Source of the DNA: a virus
Virus record (IMG/VR): IMGVR_UViG_3300017762_000020
Span: 1-38,880 of that record
Direction: 5' to 3' (one strand)
Length of the DNA: 38,880 nt
Shown here piece after piece: positions 1 through 38,750 of the stretch. The translations under genes and the position numbers were made by a program. A model generated the notes under the pieces. It saw only the letters and a list, made by a program, of their open reading frames with translations, did no database searches and was not told the origin of the DNA. The stretch's first letter is position 1. The number at the start of each line of letters is the position of its first letter.

Positions 1-68
1 AACTCTTTGTCTCTATCACCATCTACTGTCTTTTGCGCAGACGCTAATAATTCAGAACGGAATGTCAT
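1..68 (-). CDS. Partial early gene cut by the window edge; DUF6378-like N-terminus
   Basis: An ATG at 68-66 overlaps the end of the preceding gene and is preceded by a good ribosome site (GAGAGG, 9 nt spacer). The frame is open to base 1 and gives MTFRSELLASAQKTVDGDRD, then KE. The pattern of a short helix followed by GDRDKE resembles, from memory, the start of small phage proteins grouped as DUF6378 (typically GDRxxxYGDP...). Function unknown. If base 1 is joined to base 38880 the frame stays open for about 40 more codons, so this may be one gene split by linearising a circular map. The family call rests on 22 residues and is weak; the start is well supported. Confidence 0.5.
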   Translation of the reverse strand, partial: MTFRSELLASAQKTVDGDRDKE

Positions 69-639
69 CGTTAAACACCTCTCTCTTTTTTGGTTTTACA
101 GATTCAATCTCAGCACCAGGCCAATGTTGTTTGACCTCATTTACAAAGCTATGTTTGGTATCGAGCAGCCGGACTACATCATCGAGCGTGTAGGTGATCG
201 CATCACTGTCCACAAACTTGGCGTCACCGGCATCTTGGACAAACGCATACTTCTGGCCTGCATCACCTCTGTGATACCAAACGCCGAACACTTGCGGCTT
301 ATGGCCAGCTGCTAACACTCTCTTCTCAAGCACTCGCCAGCCCTTTATCATATCGCTGCATCGAGCAACAACCTCACTCACATCATCACCGCGCAACGCA
401 TTATCCAATCTGATACGCGCTTGCTCGAACCTGACAGCCAACGCTGGGTCAGCTAGTCGTTCCAGCTTACCAATGCCCCACCTCACCTCAACATCACGGG
501 CAACCGCATCAAGTGACCTAACCGCTGCATTGATGGTCTGTGCTTTTCCTGCATCGTTATACATATCAGGCACTGGCTCATACTCGTCGCCGCGCTTTTT
601 CGCCTGCCGTTTTACGCCTGCCCACTTCCCTGCCTGCAT
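52..639 (-). CDS. Early protein of unknown function with an SSB-type C-terminal tip
   Basis: 195 residues, not recognised as a family. The middle is helical and charged; the region from about residue 110 looks like a small alpha/beta domain. The last residues are EVFNDDIPF, almost the same as the acidic-hydrophobic tip of bacterial single-stranded DNA-binding protein (DDDIPF), the docking peptide for many repair and replication proteins. It lies directly downstream of the iteron array and ends the replication operon, overlapping the next gene by 17 nt. A role in binding ssDNA or recruiting host SSB partners is inferred only from the tip; no OB-fold motif was seen. Coding status is supported by length, operon position and coupling to the next start. 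Confidence 0.75.
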   Translation of the reverse strand: MQAGKWAGVKRQAKKRGDEYEPVPDMYNDAGKAQTINAAVRSLDAVARDVEVRWGIGKLERLADPALAVRFEQARIRLDNALRGDDVSEVVARCSDMIKGWRVLEKRVLAAGHKPQVFGVWYHRGDAGQKYAFVQDAGDAKFVDSDAITYTLDDVVRLLDTKHSFVNEVKQHWPGAEIESVKPKKREVFNDDIPF

Positions 640-9361: not shown

Positions 9362-9627
9362 GCTAAATTACATCGCCACCGTTTTAGTGCCGCGCCTTTC
9401 CTAGTTAATTTACCGTTTTTACTTGTCGGGCCCTTCATGCCCTTCATCCGTGCGCAAAACGATTTCTTACGCGCTTTCGCCTTGCCCTTTGGATTCTTCT
9501 GCGTAACCGGCGCTTTTAAGTTGCTGCCAGTTGCACGATTATACTTTGCTCGACCTTTGGCGGTTAGCCCAGCGCCTTGACTGGTTGGTCGTTTCTCGCC
9601 TCTGCCGACTGAAAGATTAACGCTCAT
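9358..9627 (-). CDS. Small basic late protein, DUF6321-like
   Basis: 89 residues. Key segments are QGAGLTAKGRAKYNRATGSN, then KKSFCARMKGMKGPTSKNGK and TRKGAALKRWRC, which match my memory of the DUF6321 pattern in marine phages. Strongly basic, no membrane segment, two Cys. Function unknown. It overlaps the giant upstream gene by 4 nt (ATGA) and the next small gene by 4 nt, so its expression follows that of the polyvalent protein. A DNA-condensing or ejected-protein role is possible but untested. Confidence 0.8.
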   Translation of the reverse strand: MSVNLSVGRGEKRPTSQGAGLTAKGRAKYNRATGSNLKAPVTQKNPKGKAKARKKSFCARMKGMKGPTSKNGKLTRKGAALKRWRCNLA

Positions 9628-12600
9628 AGATCAAAGTTTTTCTTTTTGCGGCCACGCTGGCCTGGTTCGTACCGTTGTCCGTAAAGCAGTTCTAAAACCT
9701 GATTTATAACTTCGTTCTTAAATGTCGTACTAGTTAGCCCCATTGCTGCGCCGGTTGCCGGTATGGCAGCTGCTGGCGATAGCGGCAGACCGGCTAGGAC
9801 AATACTTATCATTGGCTGAATGATTAAATTATAAGCGCCACGGAAAGCCTTAAATTCACTCGACACGGTATTATCGCTGTTCTGGCTGGTAAACGCTTGG
9901 GCTATATCGCCAACATTTTGCGCAACATAACTGCCTATACCAAGCATCGAGTTAGCAATATCGCGTTGGTATTTGAGGCCGGTAAAGGCTTGCACGATAG
10001 GATCAAACGCACCAGTTAGACCAGCACGGGCAAAGGCAAGCGGTATAAGATACTTGCCAACAAACTTTGCGGCATCCTCGTCAGCTTCTTCCCACTCTCG
10101 ATCCCAGCGGTCTTGGTTAAAAATATATTCTCTGGCTGTTGATACAATCGCGTGGGCTGTAAACAGACTAAGCATTGGGATTGCAGCTGCTGATGTTGCA
10201 AACATTGCTGCATCTTTTGTCGATGCGGCCTTGCCCTTGCCAAGCGATCTGCTGATGCCGTATTCGCGCTTGGTTCTTCTAACCATCGCTTTCAGCACCT
10301 TGTCTTGGAATGAGTATATAAAGCTGGTGATGCCGTATATGATCCTGCCAACACCACTTTCAGCCCATCGAGGTCTGTCTACCGTGCGCGGGTCTTGTAT
10401 TGTTTGGTCAACAAACCGCATTGTCGATACGGCCAGCTGTAATCCCATGTCAGTGTAGTCGCCTTGCGCATCCATCACATCTTCTGCTTGCGGCAGCGCA
10501 GAGGTTTTGATTTTTTTCTTACCAAGCATTGTTGCTTGTTCTTCGCCAAAGCCAAGTATGTAGTCGATAAACTGCTCCATGCGGCTATCAGCAACGCCCA
10601 AGTCTTTTAGCACCAGCTTGGCTCTAGCCGCGTTTCTTTCGCTCGATGGGTTACGAATTTCGTATGCCATCTCAAGCATATACTGGAAACCAATCTTTGA
10701 TGCTGACCGGCGCTGCGCGTTTGTAATGCCGGACAGTTTAATCTTTGCAAAGAATTTAGACTGCAACCTGTTGATGTTTGGGTCGCCAGCAAACTCACCA
10801 CCTATGCGGCTAGTCATAATGTCGCCGACTTCTGGGTCGTCTATAACACCAAGTATTCTGGCAAACTGGTGTCTAAGTCGAATATCTTCGGTCGCGTTTT
10901 TCGACAATTTACGCAAACCAGGAAACTCCATCATGGTTGACCCAAACGACTGTATGCCTTTTTGTACGCTGCCGGTCGATAAAGCGGTTGTAAATGGCTC
11001 GGCAATCGAGGCTATAGGCGCTCGAACCAGTAACGTGATTGACAGTGTTGCAGCAAATCTGTTTGCAAGTTTTTGCGCCATGCCTGCTTGGAACCCTGAC
11101 ATATTGCGGCCAAGCATAGTGTCTATGGTCTGCTTCAGTTCGTTGACTTCAGACGCGCTCACACCTTCTTCTTGCAATTTTGTAAGATCATATTCGATGG
11201 CATCGTTGTATTTTCTTTTGTCTGCTATGTCCGGCAGCGTGTTTAGACCAAAGCGGCGTTCAAATTCAGCCTTTCGGGTGACAGCTAGTATGTAGTTTGT
11301 GACCGCCTCAACTGGATCGTTGACGTAAAAATCTTCCATTATGGCATCAGCTTCTGGTGGCAGCTGCCGTGTTTTAGAAAATTTTGCTTGCGGGGATGAC
11401 ATCGTTGGGTCGCCGACATTACCCCGCCTAATTGCAGCTAACCAATTTACTGCGCTCATATCTGAATAAGATTCACGCATTTCTGCATGAAACTCTGCAA
11501 ATTCATCGGCTACGGCATCAACCGCATCTTGTATGTCGGCCTCAAGCGCTTCGATCTGTTGATCTGTTACAGAATCTGGGTCTGCTTCTTTTTGTTTATT
11601 CAATGCCCGTAAGTCGGCCATCAACTCTCTGACTTCTTGCCAGCCGCTGCCTCTCGTAAACTCAATGTAAGCTGGTTCTGTCGCTAAAGTCCTTATGCTG
11701 CCGTCATCACGCACTTGTTCAGTTCTTAGCTTTTGGTCTTGGATAAATTTAATTGTGTCCAGCATATAATCGAGACTGTTTTGGTCTATAGGGCCAAGCG
11801 TTTCGTCAAAGACAACGCGGTACACTTCTGTCGCTTTGGTCGTAAACTCTTTTGGATTTTCTGCAATCCGCAATGTATCTGGTATGCGTGGCACATAGCC
11901 GCTTTTTGCATATCCAATATCAAGACCAGCCTTGTTGGCGTAGTCGTGTATGTTGTTATAGATTGTTCTAAAACCACCAGCTGCTTTGACTACATTGTCT
12001 GGCGCTGATCCAAGTGTGTCTTGGCTGGTCAGTATCATGTGCAGCTGCTTGGTTTCTAATTCGTTAAACAGCGAAACATCGTTTGCATTTATGATGTTTT
12101 TAAGGCGATCCGAAAACATACGCACTTGTCTTGCTTGTGCATTAAACAAAGTGTCGCCCTCAAAAACACTTTGAAACTCGCCGCCAGTTTGCGTAGCTAG
12201 TTTTCCATACAGCGCCTTTAGCCTGCGATTGTTCGGGTATCGTTTCATAATAGCTTTGATCTGGCCTTGCTTTTGATAAAAGAATGGGGCCAAGAAACTA
12301 TCCTCTATGAACGCGTATGCCCTCATAGGAACAACGTATCCCTTTTCTCCTATAATCGCTTTTTTCTTGCCAATGTATTGGCTGTATAATTTTGGTTGAT
12401 TTGCTTTTTTCTCCGCAAACTTACGGGCTGCCCTAGCTTCTCTCTTTTGGTCAGCAATAAAACCTTGCGATACATTTTCGGGAACATCGTGCATCTTTCG
12501 GATATCAATGACAAATTGATCCCCCACTTCTGTTGCTGCCTGCCCTTCGCCTAGCGCTGTTTCTCTTGCAATAGCATCCATTAGGTTGCGGAAAGCACCC

Positions 12601-15600
12601 ATAATCTCAACGCGCTCTTGGCCTTTCGGGAATGTTAGGGCTAGTCTTGAGTCCATAATCGCAAGCAGATCAGCTACATTCTTTGGATTTTCTAACTGTT
12701 CGCGTGTGATACCAAGCTGTTCGAGCGTCATGTCATACGCTTCGCGGCTCTTGCCCATACCTTCTGTGCGCAGCCCGGCATTAGCCAACTGTGTTATAGC
12801 AAAATGCTCAAACGCCCTAGCAGACATTTCAGCTGGGCTTGCCCAGTACGCAGCGGAAGAATTACCAATCTCGGCAAAAAACTCTGCGTTCTCTCGATAC
12901 TCTGTTGCCTTTACCTTTTTGCTTTTACCAACAGCTGACAGTATGTTTTCTTTTTGCTGCTTCAGCTTTTGATAAGTTGACATCTGACTTACATCCTTGC
13001 CGCTCTTTTGCGCACGGACTTCCATCGCAGTCATCTTCTCATTGATAGCTTGCAGCTGCGCTGCTTCTGTCGCCTTGTCTTTGTATATCGCTCTCATAAG
13101 CGCAAAGTATGAATCTTTTAGGCTGGTCGGCGCGTCTGGGCCAAACGCTTCAGACCCATGTTTTTTAACCGCAGCTGATGCTAGAGGTATTTTTGTTGCT
13201 TCAGCATCGCCAAACTTGCCCAGCAAGTAATGATCGAGCGCGTGGAACCACTCATGCGCAAAGCTGTTGCTGCGTTTCGGCAATGTGATTGACCGTGTGT
13301 TTGGATCGTAGACGCCATACGCGCCTATGTTTTTGGCTAAGATAAAACTGAGTGTACCTTCGAGGCCAAACGCTTTTGTCGGCAATCCAAGGTTTGCAGC
13401 GAGGTCGGTAAGGTTGTGATAACCAACTAGCAGCTGATCGACTGCTTCTTTTGCGCTGGCGTTGTCGGTTTTGACCACATTTGCAAAACCAAAACGCCGC
13501 TGCATCATATCAGATAATATTCTAAACTGGCGCTCGATAGGGAAGCTGATCGCAATGTCAGGATCTAGCCCCGCATCCGCAAACGCCTGCCTTTGTAGCG
13601 CCGACCCTTTGCGCATCGACTCTTTGTCAACTCGCGTTCCTGGCTTCTGCTGCCGCGTGTTATCGAGGTCAGATATTGGTCGTATGGTATCTTCCGGCGA
13701 TCCCACAACATCTTCACCAGCCACCTCTGTTCTGCTCGTTCTCTCAAGCTCATTTATACGTCTTTGGACTTCTTGCTGGCCGGTGTCTGCGAGGCCACCC
13801 GTAGTCCTTTTGCTGCTTCTCGTAGGTGTGGCGCGTCGTGCTTGTTGGCCGCTCTCATTAAGGCTGCGGCTAGGGCGCTGTTGGGCGTCTGCGAGGAGGT
13901 CGCCTTGTCCTTCTGTGCCATCTGCTTTTCTCCGTGCCAACTCGACTACATCGCGTGGCGTTGTTGTATCCTCAAAAAAACCGCCCTGCTTCTTTTGTGC
14001 GGCTTCTTCTGTGTAGAATTTTAGGACATCGGACATAATGCGCTGTGACTTAGCGCGGGTCAATTCTTCGTTATAAAACGCTCTTATCAACGCTTCGGTG
14101 TTAGGGTCAGTCTGCGTAAACGCATCTTGCTGCGCAAAGAAATCCCGTGGCTTTACACCTCGATTACGCAAATCGCTGATAATTCTAGCGGCTTCGGTGA
14201 CATTTGCTGATATGTCAAACTGGCTGTTTACCTCACCAGCTGAAATGTCAGACTTTAGTTTGGCAAAGCTAGGCGCGGCATCGAGCATCGCGTTTGATAT
14301 GGCTTTTATGTTGTCATCGGTGCTGTCCAGCATGATAGCCAGCGCGTCGGTATCTTCGTATGCTGTCGCCAATATGGCGTTTTGCATACGCTGCACACCC
14401 TCTTTGGTCAAACGGCCATCACGGCTCATAGTGTTTTGCTCTGTTGGCGCAACTACACTGCGCATAAATTGCTGAACAAACCCTTGGTTCTCGGTAGATG
14501 TTAGCGATCCACCTCGGAACATATTTACCATTTCAATGTCCATAGCTTGTGCGTCACGCTGCGCACGTTCCGTTGCAGACATCGAGGCAATGCTTTCCCG
14601 ATTTGAAAGGTCTGCAAAAGAAGCTAAATCTTGGGCGCTCATGTCTTGATCGAGCATCATTACAAGCACGGGAGTTTCGTAATTTGCGTCACTTGTCCCG
14701 TAGCTTTCGATAGCTTGTCTGTAATTCGCGTACTGTTCTGGATACTCAGCTTTGGCGAGTTCAATAGACAAAACGCGGCCATTGCCAGATATAATTGTGC
14801 CATCCCTTGCGATGATTGGTGCGCCCATGCTGGTAATAGGGCTTTCTATTAGCTGTCCTGGGTCTAGCTTGGACGCCCTTTCTCGAACAGCAACGTCGCT
14901 TTCTTTAAGACTTCTATCTCTTGGCTGAAAATCACCTTCAGCTTTTTTTAAGTCTGCAAGGTCTATGATAAATGGCTTTACCGCTACCTCTTGCTCACTG
15001 TTTGGTGTGCGGATTGTAAGTGTTTTTTGCTGCCCATCAGTGTCAGCCACGGGCCGTGCAAACGGAATGACTGGCTGGGCTTGCGGATTGACAGGCTCGG
15101 CTGCCGGTGCTGTTTCCGCTGCAACTGGCTCGACTACCGGCTGCTCAACTACCGGCTGCTCAACTACCGGCTCGGCTGCCTGTGCCTGCACTGGTGCTGG
15201 CTCTGGCTCTGCTTGTTCTAGCGCGTCTATCATCAAATTGCCTGTTGATGGCGCTTCTGGCTGTGCTGTCAGCTGCGCTCGATCTGGCGATAACAAATCT
15301 CTGGCAACTTGATCTGTAACACTACGCTCTAATGATTGCGCCTCGGCCTCTGCACGGTTTGCAGCCGCTTCTCTGCTACCCGACAATGTACCGGTTGCGA
15401 CCTCGATGCCGCCTAACGGTATTTCAGCAATACCTTCTAAAGCAATTTCGCCTCTGCTTATTTTGTCTCGGAAACCTTCTTGCAACTCACGCAACTGTGC
15501 AGCTGCCTCACCAGAAGCACCTAAACCACCTTGTACGGCAAGATCAAGGCCAGCAGCGCCAGCGATAGCCGGTGTTTTTGCGCCTGCTTTTATAAAAGCG

Positions 15601-16796
15601 CCTGTGATTTTACCAGCCAGACCCATAGATAGAGCGTCAAACACGGCTATGGGCAATGCGTAAGTCTCGCCTCTTTTTCTTGCTCTGTCGTAAAACTCTG
15701 GGTTTGACAGCATTTCCTGCACGGCGTTGTTGTCATTCATATCGACGCCAGCTTCACGCAACTCTTGAATGATAACATCATTGTATATCTGGCCGTATGT
15801 AATCGCTCCACCGGCAGCTGCGCCAAGAATAGGTGTGCCAACTACCGATCCAGCAATAAACATAGACAAAGAAGCGGCAGACATTGGCAAAGATTCAGCC
15901 ACAACAGACATGACCGCACTTGGATTATTTGCTATGGCTTTGAGGCTGTCTGCCCAGCCATCTGCATCAACAATCTCACGCAGCGCTGCTTGTAACTCTG
16001 GTGGCTGGTCTGGTGTAATTCTGTTTAGTTCAGTCATAACCCTAATTGCTTGGCTTTGGTCTTGCAGCCCAAGCGATGAACCAAGTAACGACATTGACTG
16101 ATTAGCGCGAGATAAGCCTCGAACAAACGCATTGTTAGGTAATTCGTATGTGTTGCCTCTGGCTATCTGCGCAGCTGCCGTTTCGTTATCAATGGGCGTC
16201 GGTGATCCCATTATGTCCATTGTGTAGTTGTCCGGCATACCAGATACACCAGACACTGTTGGATTTAGATTAAGGTTTGCCTTTTCTCTTGTTGGCCCCA
16301 GCTGCCCCATTACGTCAGTTACGCGCTGCTGCTCGTTTGCAATAATCTGGTCATTTGTTAATGGCGCTGGGTTAAATGCGCTAACAGGATTCACACCGTC
16401 TTGACCCAGCTGCACCGGCGGTGTTGCTGCTGACCTTGCGGCTGCATCATTTCTGCCTCGTAAGTTAGGCTGTATTAATGGCGTAATGCTGTCTCGAATG
16501 GCTTGGTTGCTTGCAATTATGTCATCAATCGTTGGATCAGGGTCATCATCGAGCATTGGCGGCGGCGGCATTTGCGGCTGCGGCGCAGTTCTTGGATCAT
16601 TCCTACCACTTAGTGCAGGGTCTACCGGCGGCACTGCACCCACGGGAGAAAAAATGGGCGGAGGAATAGCAGCATCGACAGCCGCCGGTAGTTCTGGCTC
16701 ATTCAGAAGATCGAGCATCATATTGCCGGTTGAACTTGGAGCGGCGCTGGGCGCAGCTGCGTCTTGTTCATCCAGCGCTTGCAGCATCAAGTTCAT
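9624..16796 (-). CDS. Giant phage polyvalent/internal virion protein with ParB-like and zincin domains
   Basis: 2390 residues, 18% of the window. Layout: Pro/Ala-rich disordered N-terminus (1-210); hydrophobic, membrane-active segment (about 270-470); Glu/Pro repeat linker (about 520-580); DdrB/ParB-like domain (about 600-830) with ISGNGRVLSIE; charged linker; a metallopeptidase-like domain with HEWFH at 1181-1185 in the HExxH zincin motif, followed by further polyvalent-associated segments; and a hydrophobic C-terminal region. Such multidomain proteins are thought to be carried in the virion and injected. Position among internal virion genes supports this. It likely replaces the T7-type gp15/gp16 ejection proteins. 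The ribosome site is weak (start 1 nt from the previous stop). Confidence 0.85.
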   Translation of the reverse strand: MNLMLQALDEQDAAAPSAAPSSTGNMMLDLLNEPELPAAVDAAIPPPIFSPVGAVPPVDPALSGRNDPRTAPQPQMPPPPMLDDDPDPTIDDIIASNQAIRDSITPLIQPNLRGRNDAAARSAATPPVQLGQDGVNPVSAFNPAPLTNDQIIANEQQRVTDVMGQLGPTREKANLNLNPTVSGVSGMPDNYTMDIMGSPTPIDNETAAAQIARGNTYELPNNAFVRGLSRANQSMSLLGSSLGLQDQSQAIRVMTELNRITPDQPPELQAALREIVDADGWADSLKAIANNPSAVMSVVAESLPMSAASLSMFIAGSVVGTPILGAAAGGAITYGQIYNDVIIQELREAGVDMNDNNAVQEMLSNPEFYDRARKRGETYALPIAVFDALSMGLAGKITGAFIKAGAKTPAIAGAAGLDLAVQGGLGASGEAAAQLRELQEGFRDKISRGEIALEGIAEIPLGGIEVATGTLSGSREAAANRAEAEAQSLERSVTDQVARDLLSPDRAQLTAQPEAPSTGNLMIDALEQAEPEPAPVQAQAAEPVVEQPVVEQPVVEPVAAETAPAAEPVNPQAQPVIPFARPVADTDGQQKTLTIRTPNSEQEVAVKPFIIDLADLKKAEGDFQPRDRSLKESDVAVRERASKLDPGQLIESPITSMGAPIIARDGTIISGNGRVLSIELAKAEYPEQYANYRQAIESYGTSDANYETPVLVMMLDQDMSAQDLASFADLSNRESIASMSATERAQRDAQAMDIEMVNMFRGGSLTSTENQGFVQQFMRSVVAPTEQNTMSRDGRLTKEGVQRMQNAILATAYEDTDALAIMLDSTDDNIKAISNAMLDAAPSFAKLKSDISAGEVNSQFDISANVTEAARIISDLRNRGVKPRDFFAQQDAFTQTDPNTEALIRAFYNEELTRAKSQRIMSDVLKFYTEEAAQKKQGGFFEDTTTPRDVVELARRKADGTEGQGDLLADAQQRPSRSLNESGQQARRATPTRSSKRTTGGLADTGQQEVQRRINELERTSRTEVAGEDVVGSPEDTIRPISDLDNTRQQKPGTRVDKESMRKGSALQRQAFADAGLDPDIAISFPIERQFRILSDMMQRRFGFANVVKTDNASAKEAVDQLLVGYHNLTDLAANLGLPTKAFGLEGTLSFILAKNIGAYGVYDPNTRSITLPKRSNSFAHEWFHALDHYLLGKFGDAEATKIPLASAAVKKHGSEAFGPDAPTSLKDSYFALMRAIYKDKATEAAQLQAINEKMTAMEVRAQKSGKDVSQMSTYQKLKQQKENILSAVGKSKKVKATEYRENAEFFAEIGNSSAAYWASPAEMSARAFEHFAITQLANAGLRTEGMGKSREAYDMTLEQLGITREQLENPKNVADLLAIMDSRLALTFPKGQERVEIMGAFRNLMDAIARETALGEGQAATEVGDQFVIDIRKMHDVPENVSQGFIADQKREARAARKFAEKKANQPKLYSQYIGKKKAIIGEKGYVVPMRAYAFIEDSFLAPFFYQKQGQIKAIMKRYPNNRRLKALYGKLATQTGGEFQSVFEGDTLFNAQARQVRMFSDRLKNIINANDVSLFNELETKQLHMILTSQDTLGSAPDNVVKAAGGFRTIYNNIHDYANKAGLDIGYAKSGYVPRIPDTLRIAENPKEFTTKATEVYRVVFDETLGPIDQNSLDYMLDTIKFIQDQKLRTEQVRDDGSIRTLATEPAYIEFTRGSGWQEVRELMADLRALNKQKEADPDSVTDQQIEALEADIQDAVDAVADEFAEFHAEMRESYSDMSAVNWLAAIRRGNVGDPTMSSPQAKFSKTRQLPPEADAIMEDFYVNDPVEAVTNYILAVTRKAEFERRFGLNTLPDIADKRKYNDAIEYDLTKLQEEGVSASEVNELKQTIDTMLGRNMSGFQAGMAQKLANRFAATLSITLLVRAPIASIAEPFTTALSTGSVQKGIQSFGSTMMEFPGLRKLSKNATEDIRLRHQFARILGVIDDPEVGDIMTSRIGGEFAGDPNINRLQSKFFAKIKLSGITNAQRRSASKIGFQYMLEMAYEIRNPSSERNAARAKLVLKDLGVADSRMEQFIDYILGFGEEQATMLGKKKIKTSALPQAEDVMDAQGDYTDMGLQLAVSTMRFVDQTIQDPRTVDRPRWAESGVGRIIYGITSFIYSFQDKVLKAMVRRTKREYGISRSLGKGKAASTKDAAMFATSAAAIPMLSLFTAHAIVSTAREYIFNQDRWDREWEEADEDAAKFVGKYLIPLAFARAGLTGAFDPIVQAFTGLKYQRDIANSMLGIGSYVAQNVGDIAQAFTSQNSDNTVSSEFKAFRGAYNLIIQPMISIVLAGLPLSPAAAIPATGAAMGLTSTTFKNEVINQVLELLYGQRYEPGQRGRKKKNFDL
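15126..15176 (-). repeat. In-frame tandem repeat coding VVEQP
   Basis: About three 15-bp copies (unit CAACTACCGGCTGCT on the plus strand) encode PVVEQPVVEQPVVEPV in the Pro/Glu linker of the giant protein. It is a flexible spacer that can expand or contract by slippage without frameshift. Confidence 0.75.
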
Positions 16797-31272: not shown

Positions 31273-31610
31273 TATTTTGGCTTTCTCTCAGCGTAAGCGT
31301 TTGCCCCAAAATAAGCGGCGACCAAAGCAGAATTGGCAACAAAATAGGTGGGCGCAATGTCGGTAATCATCGTTGCCGCATTGTCATAGCCCAGCATGGC
31401 TGTAATCAATATGGCAGCTGGGTAATTAAGTGTTCCAAAAAGCGCAAACCAAGTCATCCACCGCATTGAGTCACGCCTCGCGTCTGCATCTTCTAACTCA
31501 CGCCTTTTAAACTCCAAGGCCATGGTAATTTCGTCATCGCACAACGTATCATCGTTATTTGTGTCAAGATGCTGATATGCGCTGTCTTTTTGCAATTTCT
31601 TCTGGGTCAT
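31272..31610 (-). CDS. EF-hand plus two-TM membrane protein in lysis cassette
   Basis: 112 residues. Residues 16-27 (DTNNDDTLCDDE) form a 12-residue EF-hand calcium loop, with D16, N18, D20, L23 and E27 at consensus sites. Next comes an amphipathic charged helix (KRRELEDADARRDSMRW), then two TM segments (about 52-75 and 81-106) and a basic end. This could be a holin or antiholin whose state depends on divalent cations (inference). It is coupled to its neighbours by TAATG and ATGA overlaps. Confidence 0.75.
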   Translation of the reverse strand: MTQKKLQKDSAYQHLDTNNDDTLCDDEITMALEFKRRELEDADARRDSMRWMTWFALFGTLNYPAAILITAMLGYDNAATMITDIAPTYFVANSALVAAYFGANAYAERKPK

Positions 31611-32125
31611 AGGTTAATTGGCTCCTCTCGACCCTCTGCCATTGCCACAAACAAAAAGGCAAACAGCGCTATCGTAATCGCAATGACCGCGCCAACGATC
31701 GCTGCATTTTTAAGCGCCTCGTTAAATTCCGCAGCCTTACGAGCCGCTTCACGCTTTTGCGCGGCGATCTGCTCCTTTTGTTTTTTAACAGCTTCTGCAT
31801 GGTGGTTTAAAATTTCCTGCCATGTGGACGGCTGGTTTGCTGGCTTTGGCCACCTTAAATTAATTAATGTAGAAATCTGTTGCAGTTCAAATTCGAGGTC
31901 TTTGGCGGCCAATACAGCGTCGATCGAACTAGTCAGCTTAATATCCACCCCCACTGATGCTTGCTTGTTTCTTTCCTCGTTTATTTTTTGCCTTGCCGCG
32001 AAAATTGTAGACAGTTGATCGGAAAGTTGGCTGACACTTTCAACATCGTTGACACGTTCTTTAACGAATTTTATTGCACTTGACGCCGCCTGGACGGCCA
32101 TCAGCGCGGTCGAGATCGGTTCCAT
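31607..32125 (-). CDS. Coiled-coil protein with C-terminal membrane anchor
   Basis: 172 residues. A long helical region (about 20-140) rich in Lys/Glu/Gln/Ala (HHAEAVKKQKEQIAAQKREA) precedes one TM helix (about 143-165: AAIVGAVIAITIALFAFLFV), then an acidic tail. This is the reverse of a classical Rz spanin, which has its TM at the N-terminus. Likely a lysis-accessory or superinfection-related protein, but no family recognised. Overlaps on both sides (TAATG, ATGA). Confidence 0.6.
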   Translation of the reverse strand: MEPISTALMAVQAASSAIKFVKERVNDVESVSQLSDQLSTIFAARQKINEERNKQASVGVDIKLTSSIDAVLAAKDLEFELQQISTLINLRWPKPANQPSTWQEILNHHAEAVKKQKEQIAAQKREAARKAAEFNEALKNAAIVGAVIAITIALFAFLFVAMAEGREEPINL

Positions 32126-35087: not shown

Positions 35088-35579
35088 TTATGCTGTTGTT
35101 CTGTAAACTACACTGAGCCACACATAGACTGAGCTTGTTGCGTTATGAATAACAGGTGTCCAAATATCCACATCTCTGGTCTGGTAAAACTTAATTGTAT
35201 CGTAAGGCGCAGTAATGTAGGGAGTGATACTCTTACAACCAGCATCTAGGTCAAATCCCCGATACAGCATTTGATTTCCACAAGGGACTGTTTCTGATGG
35301 CAGAAACGGTATACCCGAGACAATTGCCTGACCTGAGTAACCTGCTGAGTTTACGTTTGAGATTTGACATTGAAGGAAAACAAGTTCTCCTATTTTTGTG
35401 TAATTACCATTTCCAGTAATTAAGGTTGCAGGTTTTGAACTGTTACTGTCTAGCGCAGGTGTCCAAGTGCCAGTCTCATAGTCATCAAACTGATTAGCAG
35501 AAACGGTTCCACCAAAGTGCATACCTGCGAAGTCATCAGCGAGATTTACGCTTTCGGATTGTATTACTGATTTTGCCAT
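35088..35579 (-). CDS. Tail fibre tip protein (YETGTWTP-type)
   Basis: 163 residues. The segment FDDYETGTWTPALDS, then GNGNYTKIGELVFLQCQISN and SGQAIVSGIPFLP, is a frequent C-terminal tail-fibre module in many phages (D-YE-GTWTPxL; G-NYTKIG). The N-terminal 30 residues (VIQSESVNLADDFAG) would dock it. Here the module is a gene of its own rather than part of a long fibre, suggesting it was split off or is exchanged as a cassette. It overlaps the S74 fibre by 1 nt. Confidence 0.72.
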   Translation of the reverse strand: MAKSVIQSESVNLADDFAGMHFGGTVSANQFDDYETGTWTPALDSNSSKPATLITGNGNYTKIGELVFLQCQISNVNSAGYSGQAIVSGIPFLPSETVPCGNQMLYRGFDLDAGCKSITPYITAPYDTIKFYQTRDVDIWTPVIHNATSSVYVWLSVVYRTTA

Positions 35580-36745
35580 TATGCGTTCTCCAGTGCCGTC
35601 AACCGTGTCTCAATGTCAGCCAGCCGCTGTTCAGTTGCTGCACACACAAACGAAAGCAACTCAGGGTATCTGATGCCCTTGCGGGTTTGGCTGTTGCCAT
35701 CGTCATCAGTCCAAGTGTCACTAATGAAAAACGCATAGTCACCAGCATCCAGACCAGCGTCAGTCATAGCTGCTTCAACATCCTGTGCAATGACGCCTGT
35801 GTGTGTTCTGGCGGCATCGCCTTTGGCTTCTACCTTGTCGTTCCATTTGAAAGTCTTGAATAGCTTACTGATAGCTAAAGCGGCTGTAATCTCTGCGCTG
35901 GTTAAGCTGGCAATCTGTTGCTTTTCGTTTTGGTCAGATGTTTGGATTGTGCCGTTTGTGGCAAAAATATCATCAAATCTAACTGCAGAATTTCCTAAAT
36001 CTATAGCATTGTCACGATTTAAACCCGTCGAGTTAACAGGTATGATTTGACTATTTACATCGTAAAATCGCAGCCCAGTATTTCCAGTGTTTATAAAAAT
36101 ATCACCTATTCTAGACCCAATACTCCCCACAACGGTGCCGTCTTTGCTAAATTTAACAATACTGCCATCACTTGTGCCACGACCAAAAACAACTGGCGCA
36201 CCAGCGTCCCTAAAAACTTGTAGACTAAGACCGTTTTTATAAGTCATTCCTTCGACTGAATTGTCGGCTGGAAGTTCATTTGTAGACCCCACCAGCAAGT
36301 TGCCACTGGCGTCCACGCGCATACGTTCTGAACCACCAGTGTCAAATGTCATAACATCATCTGTGCTGGCAGATATCTTAGTATCGCCATCAGCGTCTAA
36401 AATGAGGTCATTGCCGTTAATGTCTACGTTGCCACTAAACGTACCAGTGGTCGCTTGCATCGGTTGGTCAGATGGATGTGTGCTTGTATGCTTTGCTAGT
36501 GAGTTATAGACAACGTAAATGTCATCGGTGGCTGCTACGCTATATCCTACTAGATTAACTGTAGTACCATCTGTCGTATACGATTCAGTAGGTTCCTGAC
36601 GAACGTGGTTAATAAAAAGGTCTATGCTTTCTGGACTAGATACAGCATGGGACAGAGTTAGGCTAGAGCCTGTAGCCCCTGTTAAATCCTGCTTTGGGGG
36701 TATCTTAGAAAACCCTACAGTTTGTTGATTACCTATGTACGCCAT
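35579..36745 (-). CDS. Tail fibre with C-terminal S74 self-cleaving chaperone domain
   Basis: 388 residues. N-terminal MAYIGNQQTVGFSKIPPKQD and ~90-residue shared beta domain; a fibre shaft with repeats (FSGNVDINGNDLILDADGDT, GSERMRVDASGNLLVGSTNE). From about 265 the peptidase S74 domain: SDQNEK with catalytic S270 and K275, then FKTFKWNDKVEAKG, HTGVIAQDVEAAM, and the coiled end (RLADIETRLTALENA). S74 domains trimerise the fibre and then cut themselves off. Cleavage would occur just before S270. Confidence 0.88.
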   Translation of the reverse strand: MAYIGNQQTVGFSKIPPKQDLTGATGSSLTLSHAVSSPESIDLFINHVRQEPTESYTTDGTTVNLVGYSVAATDDIYVVYNSLAKHTSTHPSDQPMQATTGTFSGNVDINGNDLILDADGDTKISASTDDVMTFDTGGSERMRVDASGNLLVGSTNELPADNSVEGMTYKNGLSLQVFRDAGAPVVFGRGTSDGSIVKFSKDGTVVGSIGSRIGDIFINTGNTGLRFYDVNSQIIPVNSTGLNRDNAIDLGNSAVRFDDIFATNGTIQTSDQNEKQQIASLTSAEITAALAISKLFKTFKWNDKVEAKGDAARTHTGVIAQDVEAAMTDAGLDAGDYAFFISDTWTDDDGNSQTRKGIRYPELLSFVCAATEQRLADIETRLTALENA

Positions 36746-36752
36746 AAATCAC

Positions 36753-37409
36753 CTATGTCGAAATATCGTCGATAACGCTTACCGTCACGTCGAGCGAACT
36801 AACTAGCGAACTGCGAACAAACAAACGCTCTCCGGCCTGCACAAGTATAGATTTGTCTATGACCAGTGACGAACCTGTTGGGATTGGCGTCTGCTTCTGG
36901 ATATAATGTGCATTGTCAATCGCTACAGTGTTGCCCATGCCATCACCGTGCGCAGAACAGCTGTAATACAATGAGGCTGGTGTTGTATCTGTAATGACAA
37001 TTTCTGTTTTCGCGCCAGCTGACCCAGCTGTACCCGTAGTTGTAACACCGGTTGTGTAAGCAGAGCCGCCAGCTGCGGTCTTAAATACTATCTGATGACC
37101 AGCATTTGTAGAATCTGATTGGTCAAACACATAAGTAAACCCTCGATACAGCGTAATTGCTGGCTTTTGATTGCCGCCTAGAACGAAATAACCGCCAGCT
37201 ACCCCAACGCTAAAGGTAAAATAATCACCAGCGCCTCGGTCAACCGCAGCGCCAGTCAAAAACACATCAACTAAAATACCACTTGCCGCTGTGTTGCAAA
37301 GATGTAAGCCCGTAATATTGTCAAAACTGTCAAAATCTGACCCATCTGGTATGTCTGCCGCCGTCGTGCCAACACCCGTTAGTCTAAATGGTCTGAAATT
37401 TTGTGGCAT
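36753..37409 (-). CDS. Tail tip protein with nested cupredoxin-like domain
   Basis: 218 residues. Residues 1-60 (ITGLHLCNTAASGILVDVFL) and 166-218 (YIQKQTPIPTGSSLVIDKSI, then LVQAGERLFVRSSLVSSLDV) look like two halves of one beta-sandwich tail domain. Between them (about 62-165) lies a separate beta domain: AITLYRGFTYVFDQ, GHQIVFK, LYYSCSAHGDGMGN. H105, C151, H154 and M158 match the His-Cys-His-Met ligand pattern of type-1 copper sites (C-x2-H-x3-M). Copper binding is inferred. It lies between the two largest fibre genes. Confidence 0.7.
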   Translation of the reverse strand: MPQNFRPFRLTGVGTTAADIPDGSDFDSFDNITGLHLCNTAASGILVDVFLTGAAVDRGAGDYFTFSVGVAGGYFVLGGNQKPAITLYRGFTYVFDQSDSTNAGHQIVFKTAAGGSAYTTGVTTTGTAGSAGAKTEIVITDTTPASLYYSCSAHGDGMGNTVAIDNAHYIQKQTPIPTGSSLVIDKSILVQAGERLFVRSSLVSSLDVTVSVIDDIST

Positions 37410-37427: not shown

Positions 37428-38714
37428 CTAAAGTGCGGCCGCCATTGCAATGACAAAGCCTTTCGTGGCAAAGGACGAAGTATTTACAGCTGCCACGTTG
37501 TTCCATTGGGTTCCGTCGTAAAATTTTAGGTTCGAGTCGGTGGTGTTAAAGTACAAATCTCCTGGCGCAACTGTATGGCCAGCGCTTGTATGAGCATTTT
37601 GCGCAGCTGTATCGTCAGCATGAGCGCCGTAATAAACCTGATCGAAAGTCGCAACCGCGTTTTGCGCTTCTATCGCGTATGCTTTTGCAGATTTATTTGT
37701 GCCATCGACAGTTTCTGTGCCGTCAACATAATAAGATGCCCAATCTTTTGCAGAATGAGCGCCGGTCGATCCTCTGTTTATGCTCGATACGGCATAGGCC
37801 TTGGCCGAAAACTCAGTGCCATCAACAGTCGTGCTAGTGTTTGGCGTAGCGCCGCCCCCTATCGCCCATTGAATTGCAGCACCGCCGCCGGTTGCGCCCG
37901 TAACACCAGTACCCCCGTTAGCCCATGCTTTTGAACTATATTCAGATGTGGTGGGTATGACGCCATCTATCTTAACAGCATATTGCTGGGCGGTGGTTAC
38001 ATGGCCTTGCGCGTCATTCGAGTGTCCTTGTGCCGTAGAAGCAGCAGCTTGTGCAGCTGATACAGCGGCAGTCGCAGTAACGCTTGGCCCCCAGATAATT
38101 ACATTTTCGTTGCCCGACACAGCTGGTGTGCCTGGTGCAGTAGAAAATGTAATCTGGTTGCCGGATATAGTGTAATCGTCGCCAGGATTTCTCAAGGCTC
38201 CGTTCACAAAAACAAGTACGTCAGTATTAGAAGTGTAAGAAAATGACAGCGTGAAAGTAGTTTGCGATCCAGTACCTTCAAATTTATCAACAGTCGATGC
38301 AGTGGTAGTAATGGCAGCGTTTGCCAGCAGTATCCATTTGTCAGCAGCTAAGTCAGTATCAAAAACATTTCCAGAAGTATGCGCAGTTACAGCAAGATAA
38401 GTTGCAGCGTTATTGTCAACAAGGTCGCCAGCAGCGTAAGCGCGGCCAGCTGTCCAGTTTCCTTGGACGGTATAGCCCTCTAACCCAATTAGTGCCAGCG
38501 TATCAACGCCCAGTGAATTTGCATGAACTGACTGGTTAGCGAGTTTGCCGTCGTCGCGTTGTATCAAACCAATGTTTGTGTTTAGTCCAGTTAGGTTTGT
38601 TCGAGCAGAATTAAGTTCATTGTCGATCTGTACGGCTGGTAATGGCGTTGTCGGATTAACCGTTTGGTGATCGTCAAAATTAAACTGTCGAGCGTATGGT
38701 GTTGGCTGTGCCAT
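37428..38714 (-). CDS. Main tail fibre protein
   Basis: 428 residues from the ATG at 38714 (GAGGA 6 nt upstream; a GTG at 38729 is less likely). N-terminus ARQFNFDDHQ...LNSARTNLTGLNTNIG is the virion-attachment type. Then a carbohydrate-binding-like GNWTAGRAYAAGDLVDNNAA, the shared beta domain (FEGTGSQTTFTLSFSY, DVLVFVNGALRNPGDDYTIS), an Ala/Gln coiled shaft and SAKAYA/SAKDWA repeats, ending LYFNTTDSNLKFYDGTQWNN. First gene of the late operon, which suggests the highest expression from its promoter. Binds the tail and likely carries the smaller tips. Confidence 0.85.
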   Translation of the reverse strand: MAQPTPYARQFNFDDHQTVNPTTPLPAVQIDNELNSARTNLTGLNTNIGLIQRDDGKLANQSVHANSLGVDTLALIGLEGYTVQGNWTAGRAYAAGDLVDNNAATYLAVTAHTSGNVFDTDLAADKWILLANAAITTTASTVDKFEGTGSQTTFTLSFSYTSNTDVLVFVNGALRNPGDDYTISGNQITFSTAPGTPAVSGNENVIIWGPSVTATAAVSAAQAAASTAQGHSNDAQGHVTTAQQYAVKIDGVIPTTSEYSSKAWANGGTGVTGATGGGAAIQWAIGGGATPNTSTTVDGTEFSAKAYAVSSINRGSTGAHSAKDWASYYVDGTETVDGTNKSAKAYAIEAQNAVATFDQVYYGAHADDTAAQNAHTSAGHTVAPGDLYFNTTDSNLKFYDGTQWNNVAAVNTSSFATKGFVIAMAAAL

Positions 38715-38750
38715 AAGCGTCCTCGTCACACAATTCCGTTTATGCTGGAA

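Follow-up and report, generated by a model that had tools for sequence, protein, structure and literature searches.

A 218-amino-acid virion protein, encoded on the minus strand at positions 36753-37409 of a 38,880-base virus record (taken whole and called the window here), is made up of a beta-sandwich carrier and a cupredoxin-type domain nested within it. The nested domain is a cupredoxin fold with a preserved, putative type-1 copper site, as indicated by the copper proteins that its fold matches, by conservation of the ligands and by their joint loss. The explanation that best accounts for the whole protein, and one that we consider likely, is a cupredoxin module displayed on the virion, stabilised by metal and, more tentatively, used in host contact.

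The cupredoxin fold and its ligand set are already known. The papers searched, which included few from subscription journals, contain no description of this family, its location in virion proteins, its spread among ocean phages or its loop variants, and all four appear to be undescribed. Should the site hold copper, a copper redox centre would sit on the particles of a large share of ocean phages, many isolated cyanophages and pelagiphages among them. Adsorption would then be linked to seawater copper chemistry, phages would act as copper-binding colloids, and the Trojan-horse idea considered below would gain a metal beyond iron. Annotators gain from the family a label for a domain that is very common and so far unnamed. 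For chemists, it offers a natural series of type-1 loops in two lengths, C-x2-H-x2-M and C-x2-H-x3-M.

Predicted fold of the inserted domain

Residues 61-167 (36909-37229, minus strand), modelled alone from 68 sequences, give a pLDDT of 96.7 and a pTM of 0.89 in AF2, a program whose training included cupredoxins. The best Foldseek match to this model is the nitrite reductase 2dv6 (E 9.6e-4), followed by rusticyanin and plastocyanin. VIA-align 2 ranks the N-domain of the same nitrite reductase first, with 96 residues aligned at 2.5 Å and a Z of 9.4 that is only moderately above background, and places small laccases and rusticyanin next. All of its best 50 rows are copper proteins. On the model, the insert is a Greek-key beta-sandwich of cupredoxin type, and we regard a cupredoxin fold as almost certain for the modelled domain.

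The N-domain of the Hyphomicrobium three-domain nitrite reductase, the small laccases and rusticyanin resemble the insert over 94-98 residues (Z 8-9.4, 2.4-2.8 Å). They differ from it in sequence (about 8-17% identity) and in being parts of enzymes or periplasmic carriers. These nearest folds in secreted redox proteins, together with SAR86 lipoproteins that contain little beyond the domain, fit real cupredoxin ancestry.

Conservation and joint loss of the ligands

The putative copper ligands lie in two short stretches of the minus strand. Positions 37095-37112 encode STNAGH105, with the codon of H105, the first ligand, at 37095-37097. Positions 36936-36959 encode C151-SA-H154-GDG-M158, in which the thiolate ligand C151 (36957-36959), the third ligand H154 (36948-36950) and the axial ligand M158 (36936-36938) follow one another. 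An earlier note on this DNA had read a type-1 copper pattern at these four residues and named structure prediction and ligand conservation among its checks. The codons agree with its positions, the model is cupredoxin-like, with copper proteins as its matches, and the conservation described next bears the pattern out.

An iterated search over all fetched loci yields 187 domains, 158 of which are unique. The modal residues H, C, H and M each occupy their ligand position in 151 of the 158 unique domains, a figure that is partly biased for H105, because a second pattern used to scan viral contigs contains the first His, and unbiased for the Cys, the second His and the Met. Peptide patterns containing none of the four ligands retrieved 41 of the loci. 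F95, Y93, H105, C151, H154 and M158 head the ranking of positions by conservation, so that all four ligands stand among the top six columns. Invariance of the segment GFTYVFDQ is an artefact of the scan pattern and is excluded from the evidence. The ligand set is near-invariant in phages, bacteria and archaea alike.

The rare exceptions tend to lose the ligands together. Among 156 scorable domains, 150 have the first His and C-x2-H-x-M, five have neither and one has the His only. The upstream His is missing from five of the six domains without C-x2-H-x-M and from none of the 150 with it. This association has a Fisher p of 8e-9 with kinship ignored; three of the six deficient domains form one clade, and the tree implies at least three changes. 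Were the residues to form a metal site, they would be expected to disappear together, as they do here. It is very probable that the metal site is under selection, and a chance motif of Cys, His and Met was rejected in view of conservation and joint loss.

Domains in which few or none of the ligands remain (the cyanophage fibre proteins L190-L192, and L042, L182 and L188) are natural metal-free controls. Because some phage copies have lost the entire site, the domain can function without it.

Relation to known cupredoxin families

Pfam and NCBIfam scans of the 218-residue protein return no match. Copper-bind (PF00127) stays below its gathering score: it is not matched in the window protein, and its matches in 3 of 70 relatives (best E 0.003) make it a joint-top but weak Pfam family among members, which also give weak CBM and Big_1 matches. 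Against the PDB, a single-sequence phmmer search finds antibodies and noise only, and a profile search finds two matches only, one of which is pseudoazurin (E 0.24). Profile-profile comparison with phage/plasmid plastocyanin, pseudoazurin and halocyanin gives P 79.5% (p 1.5e-5), and the hhalign alignment pairs H105, C151 and H154 with known plastocyanin-type ligands. Masking the ligand columns in both profiles lowers the match from P 74.8% to 2.9% (p 0.016). The sequence evidence for a common origin with plastocyanins therefore rests largely on the ligands.

The domain shares with plastocyanin, pseudoazurin and amicyanin its predicted fold, the pairing of H, C and H in the profile, and the ligand order of cupredoxins, in which a His in an early strand or loop precedes a C-terminal loop bearing Cys-x(2+)-His-x(n)-Met. 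It differs from them in lacking a Pfam or NCBIfam match, in the x3 spacing before Met in its clade, in the residue after the first His, and in being embedded in a virion protein without a signal peptide or known redox partner.

Loop spacing divides the family. The form C-x2-H-x2-M occurs in 113 of 156 tree rows; the window's form, C-x2-H-x3-M, occurs in 37, all of them viral contigs in the window's part of the tree. Plastocyanin and pseudoazurin in the comparison alignment have C-x2-H-x4-M, from which the window departs. The amicyanin loop is C-x2-H-x2-M, a length that most relatives share and that the window exceeds by one residue. C-x2-H-x3-M is not known to us from any characterised cupredoxin.

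Most small cupredoxins in the comparison alignment (A5) have Asn after the N-terminal His. The present family has Pro or Gln instead: Pro in 131 of 156 relatives and Gln (Q106) in the window protein. In cupredoxins the backbone NH of this residue bonds the Cys sulfur, which Pro is unable to do. Pro would therefore remove the usual NH-S(Cys) hydrogen bond, and the potential of the site may be unusual.

The carrier protein and its gene neighbourhood

The two halves of the carrier, residues 1-56 (37242-37409) and 166-218 (36756-36914), both on the minus strand, were joined and searched against phages. Uninterrupted homologues cover most of this query in HMO-2011, HTVC203P, HTVC035P, LMM01 and others. 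Alignment to these insert-free proteins places the insertion between residues 55 and 166, which makes residues ~57-165 the inserted domain. The carrier is thus a beta-sandwich of ~108 residues of the HTVC203P/HMO-2011 family, encoded beside a fibre gene. Its flanks align end to end with the small virion protein of HTVC203P and HMO-2011, whose gene stands at a comparable place directly after the tail fibre gene and carries the annotation (virion) structural protein.

The full-length AF2 model (pLDDT 85.3) yields two groups of structural matches. The flanks together match the KHP40 cement protein (model range 1..218, 105 aligned residues, VIA Z 9.2), the HFTV1 turret (Z 8.8) and an Ena appendage subunit (Z 8.7), and the insert (~64..166) matches copper nitrite reductase, rusticyanin, laccase and plastocyanin. 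The flanks thus form a single domain, and the HTVC203P and HMO-2011 homologues differ from the carrier in having no insert. The architecture read in the earlier note, a separate domain at residues ~62-165 between two halves of one virion beta-sandwich, is therefore confirmed by the model, by PHROG matches at ~59-166, by the homologues with a gap from 55 to 166, and by the joint match of the flanks to KHP40 cement.

The virus record encodes a terminase, a portal, an SU10-like major capsid protein and an integrase; the nearest relatives of its terminase and capsid protein are in Microcystis phage Mae-Yong1326-1 and Rhizobium phage RHph_N65. The carrier gene lies between a gene for a 433-residue fibre-type protein upstream (37428-38729, minus strand; gap of 18 bases) and one for a tail fibre with a Peptidase_S74 chaperone domain downstream (35579-36745, minus strand; gap of 7). 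The remaining genes of the same run include C1q-like and fibre-type members. Within the DNA covered, related viral contigs keep the upstream gene in 17 of 17 cases, with synteny over its C-terminal ~190 residues, and the downstream gene in 16 of 17. The order of fibre gene and then carrier gene also holds in HTVC203P and HMO-2011.

As part of the overall explanation given above, the carrier is likely to be a small beta-sandwich protein of the virion, encoded within the cluster of tail-fibre genes. A position at the tail tip, drawn from this neighbourhood only, is likely. Besides tail proteins, the best structural matches to the carrier comprise capsid cement and turret proteins, and a role in capsid decoration is possible.

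Other features of the window can be noted. The 433-residue fibre-type protein has a sub-threshold CBM_5_12 match at residues 91-121. A 2390-residue ORF at 9624-16796 (minus strand) is likely to encode an internal virion protein or one of tape-measure type. A 172-residue protein at 31607-32125 (minus strand), which adjoins the lysis and fibre genes, matches the MerR DNA-binding family at the borderline (E 2.4e-5, slightly short of the gathering score).

Possible roles of the inserted domain

In the mechanism that we propose, a mobile cupredoxin-fold domain was inserted into a loop of the carrier, an arrangement by which it would project from the particle. Inside the host, the apo domain would fold in the cytoplasm, its site already formed, and would take up copper once released by lysis. 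At the surface of the particle it would then serve as a display module stabilised by metal, most likely in host adsorption, with the bound metal making its binding face rigid or gating it. Judged from the sequence, type-1 copper is somewhat more likely than not to be present in the virion, because the conserved ligands, a free thiolate among them, are those of type-1 sites and because apo-cupredoxins have a preformed site. The apoplastocyanin entry 2pcy, whose title states such a preformed site, is among the structural matches. Host contact, the role that asks for the fewest assumptions, is put forward more tentatively, at somewhat less than even odds.

The domain might instead be a cupredoxin-fold spacer or adhesin whose site is a structural metal clamp, occupied by copper or by zinc from the cytoplasm, so that redox activity and the identity of the metal would be irrelevant. 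Its presence in proteins of fibres, baseplate and carrier type that have no redox partner close by, the persistence of ligand-free copies in some phage fibres and the occurrence of several copies in one ORF (L080, L087) would all suit such a clamp. An exact H/C/H/M set with a thiolate would not be needed for this purpose, yet the set is almost invariant. The clamp reading is plausible but falls somewhat short of an even chance, and a metal of structural use only comes close in likelihood to a metal-stabilised host-contact module.

A stronger proposal is that many marine tailed phages carry redox-active type-1 copper on fibres, baseplates and decoration proteins for host recognition or for electron exchange with the cell surface, by means of an unclassified cupredoxin family whose loops have the amicyanin length or one residue more. 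This we consider doubtful, and electron transfer as the function of the domain is improbable.

Metal sites are known in other phage tail proteins. Iron-binding HxH motifs in the T4 gp37 tips and in fibres of marine phages are described together with a Trojan Horse hypothesis for iron (PMC11705849). Their octahedral iron sites sit in a trimeric fibre, in contrast to the putative copper-thiolate site within a single chain proposed here. By analogy with them, virion copper could act as bait for an outer-membrane metal receptor of the host, and the concentration of the domain in phages of open-ocean hosts would be in keeping with this. For marine cyanobacteria copper is not only scarce but also toxic, which counts against copper as bait. 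We think this use of the metal unlikely.

Mobile beta-sandwich modules are likewise familiar from the Ig-like accessory domains found on tail fibres and on Hoc, among the decoration proteins reviewed in PMC7602432. These domains resemble the present one in occurring on many unrelated virion proteins, and differ in having no metal site and in belonging to another fold family. Beta-sandwich folds resemble each other, such modules are common in phage tails and members give the weak CBM and Big_1 matches, but a metal-free Ig-like or carbohydrate-binding domain with a chance cluster of Cys, His and Met is very hard to reconcile with structural matches that are uniformly to copper proteins, with four ligands conserved and lost together, and with the Copper-bind and pseudoazurin profile matches.

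Phages also encode a cupredoxin in another form. Plastocyanin matches are found in 401 phage records, and cyanophage PetE is an auxiliary metabolic gene product. PetE is a free-standing, host-derived electron carrier with C-x2-H-x4-M, distant in sequence and found outside virion proteins. Because its sequence is not close and it stands alone, phage PetE was rejected as the source of the domain.

Distribution of the domain

At least 594 stretches in viral contigs encode relatives of the domain. Matches to the C-x2-H-x2-M form come from 323 records of named phages, most of them Synechococcus and Prochlorococcus phages, with Pelagibacter and Methylophilales phages among the others. Where phage relatives are annotated, they are called tail fibre, structural, baseplate or hypothetical proteins. 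BFVD contains 70 predicted viral structures with matches at E <= 0.001, and P-SSM2 tail fibres and baseplate wedge connectors are among them. Some ORFs, such as L080 and L087, carry two or three copies.

In prokaryote genomes, the broader alignment used as query finds 46 loci. A single pattern from the window's clade matches nothing in the prokaryote genome contigs because it was derived from that clade only, and plasmids contain no match to the domain. Many of the 46 loci are phage-type fibres in MAGs and SAGs of SAR11 and other groups. Others are of a different kind. In SAR86, L156, L159, L170 and L171 are lipoproteins of ~180 residues with a single domain and the lipobox AACGGGGG or similar, and the domain is present in 17 of 40 SAR86-family genomes. 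These proteins are likely to be a cellular family of blue-copper lipoproteins without a Pfam name. In Marine Group II Euryarchaeota, L158 and L161 combine a lipoprotein signal and collagen-like repeats with the domain. In Prochlorococcus, L168, L175 and L177 are proteins of ~400 residues in which the domain is fused to DUF4214 (Pfam match from L168 only).
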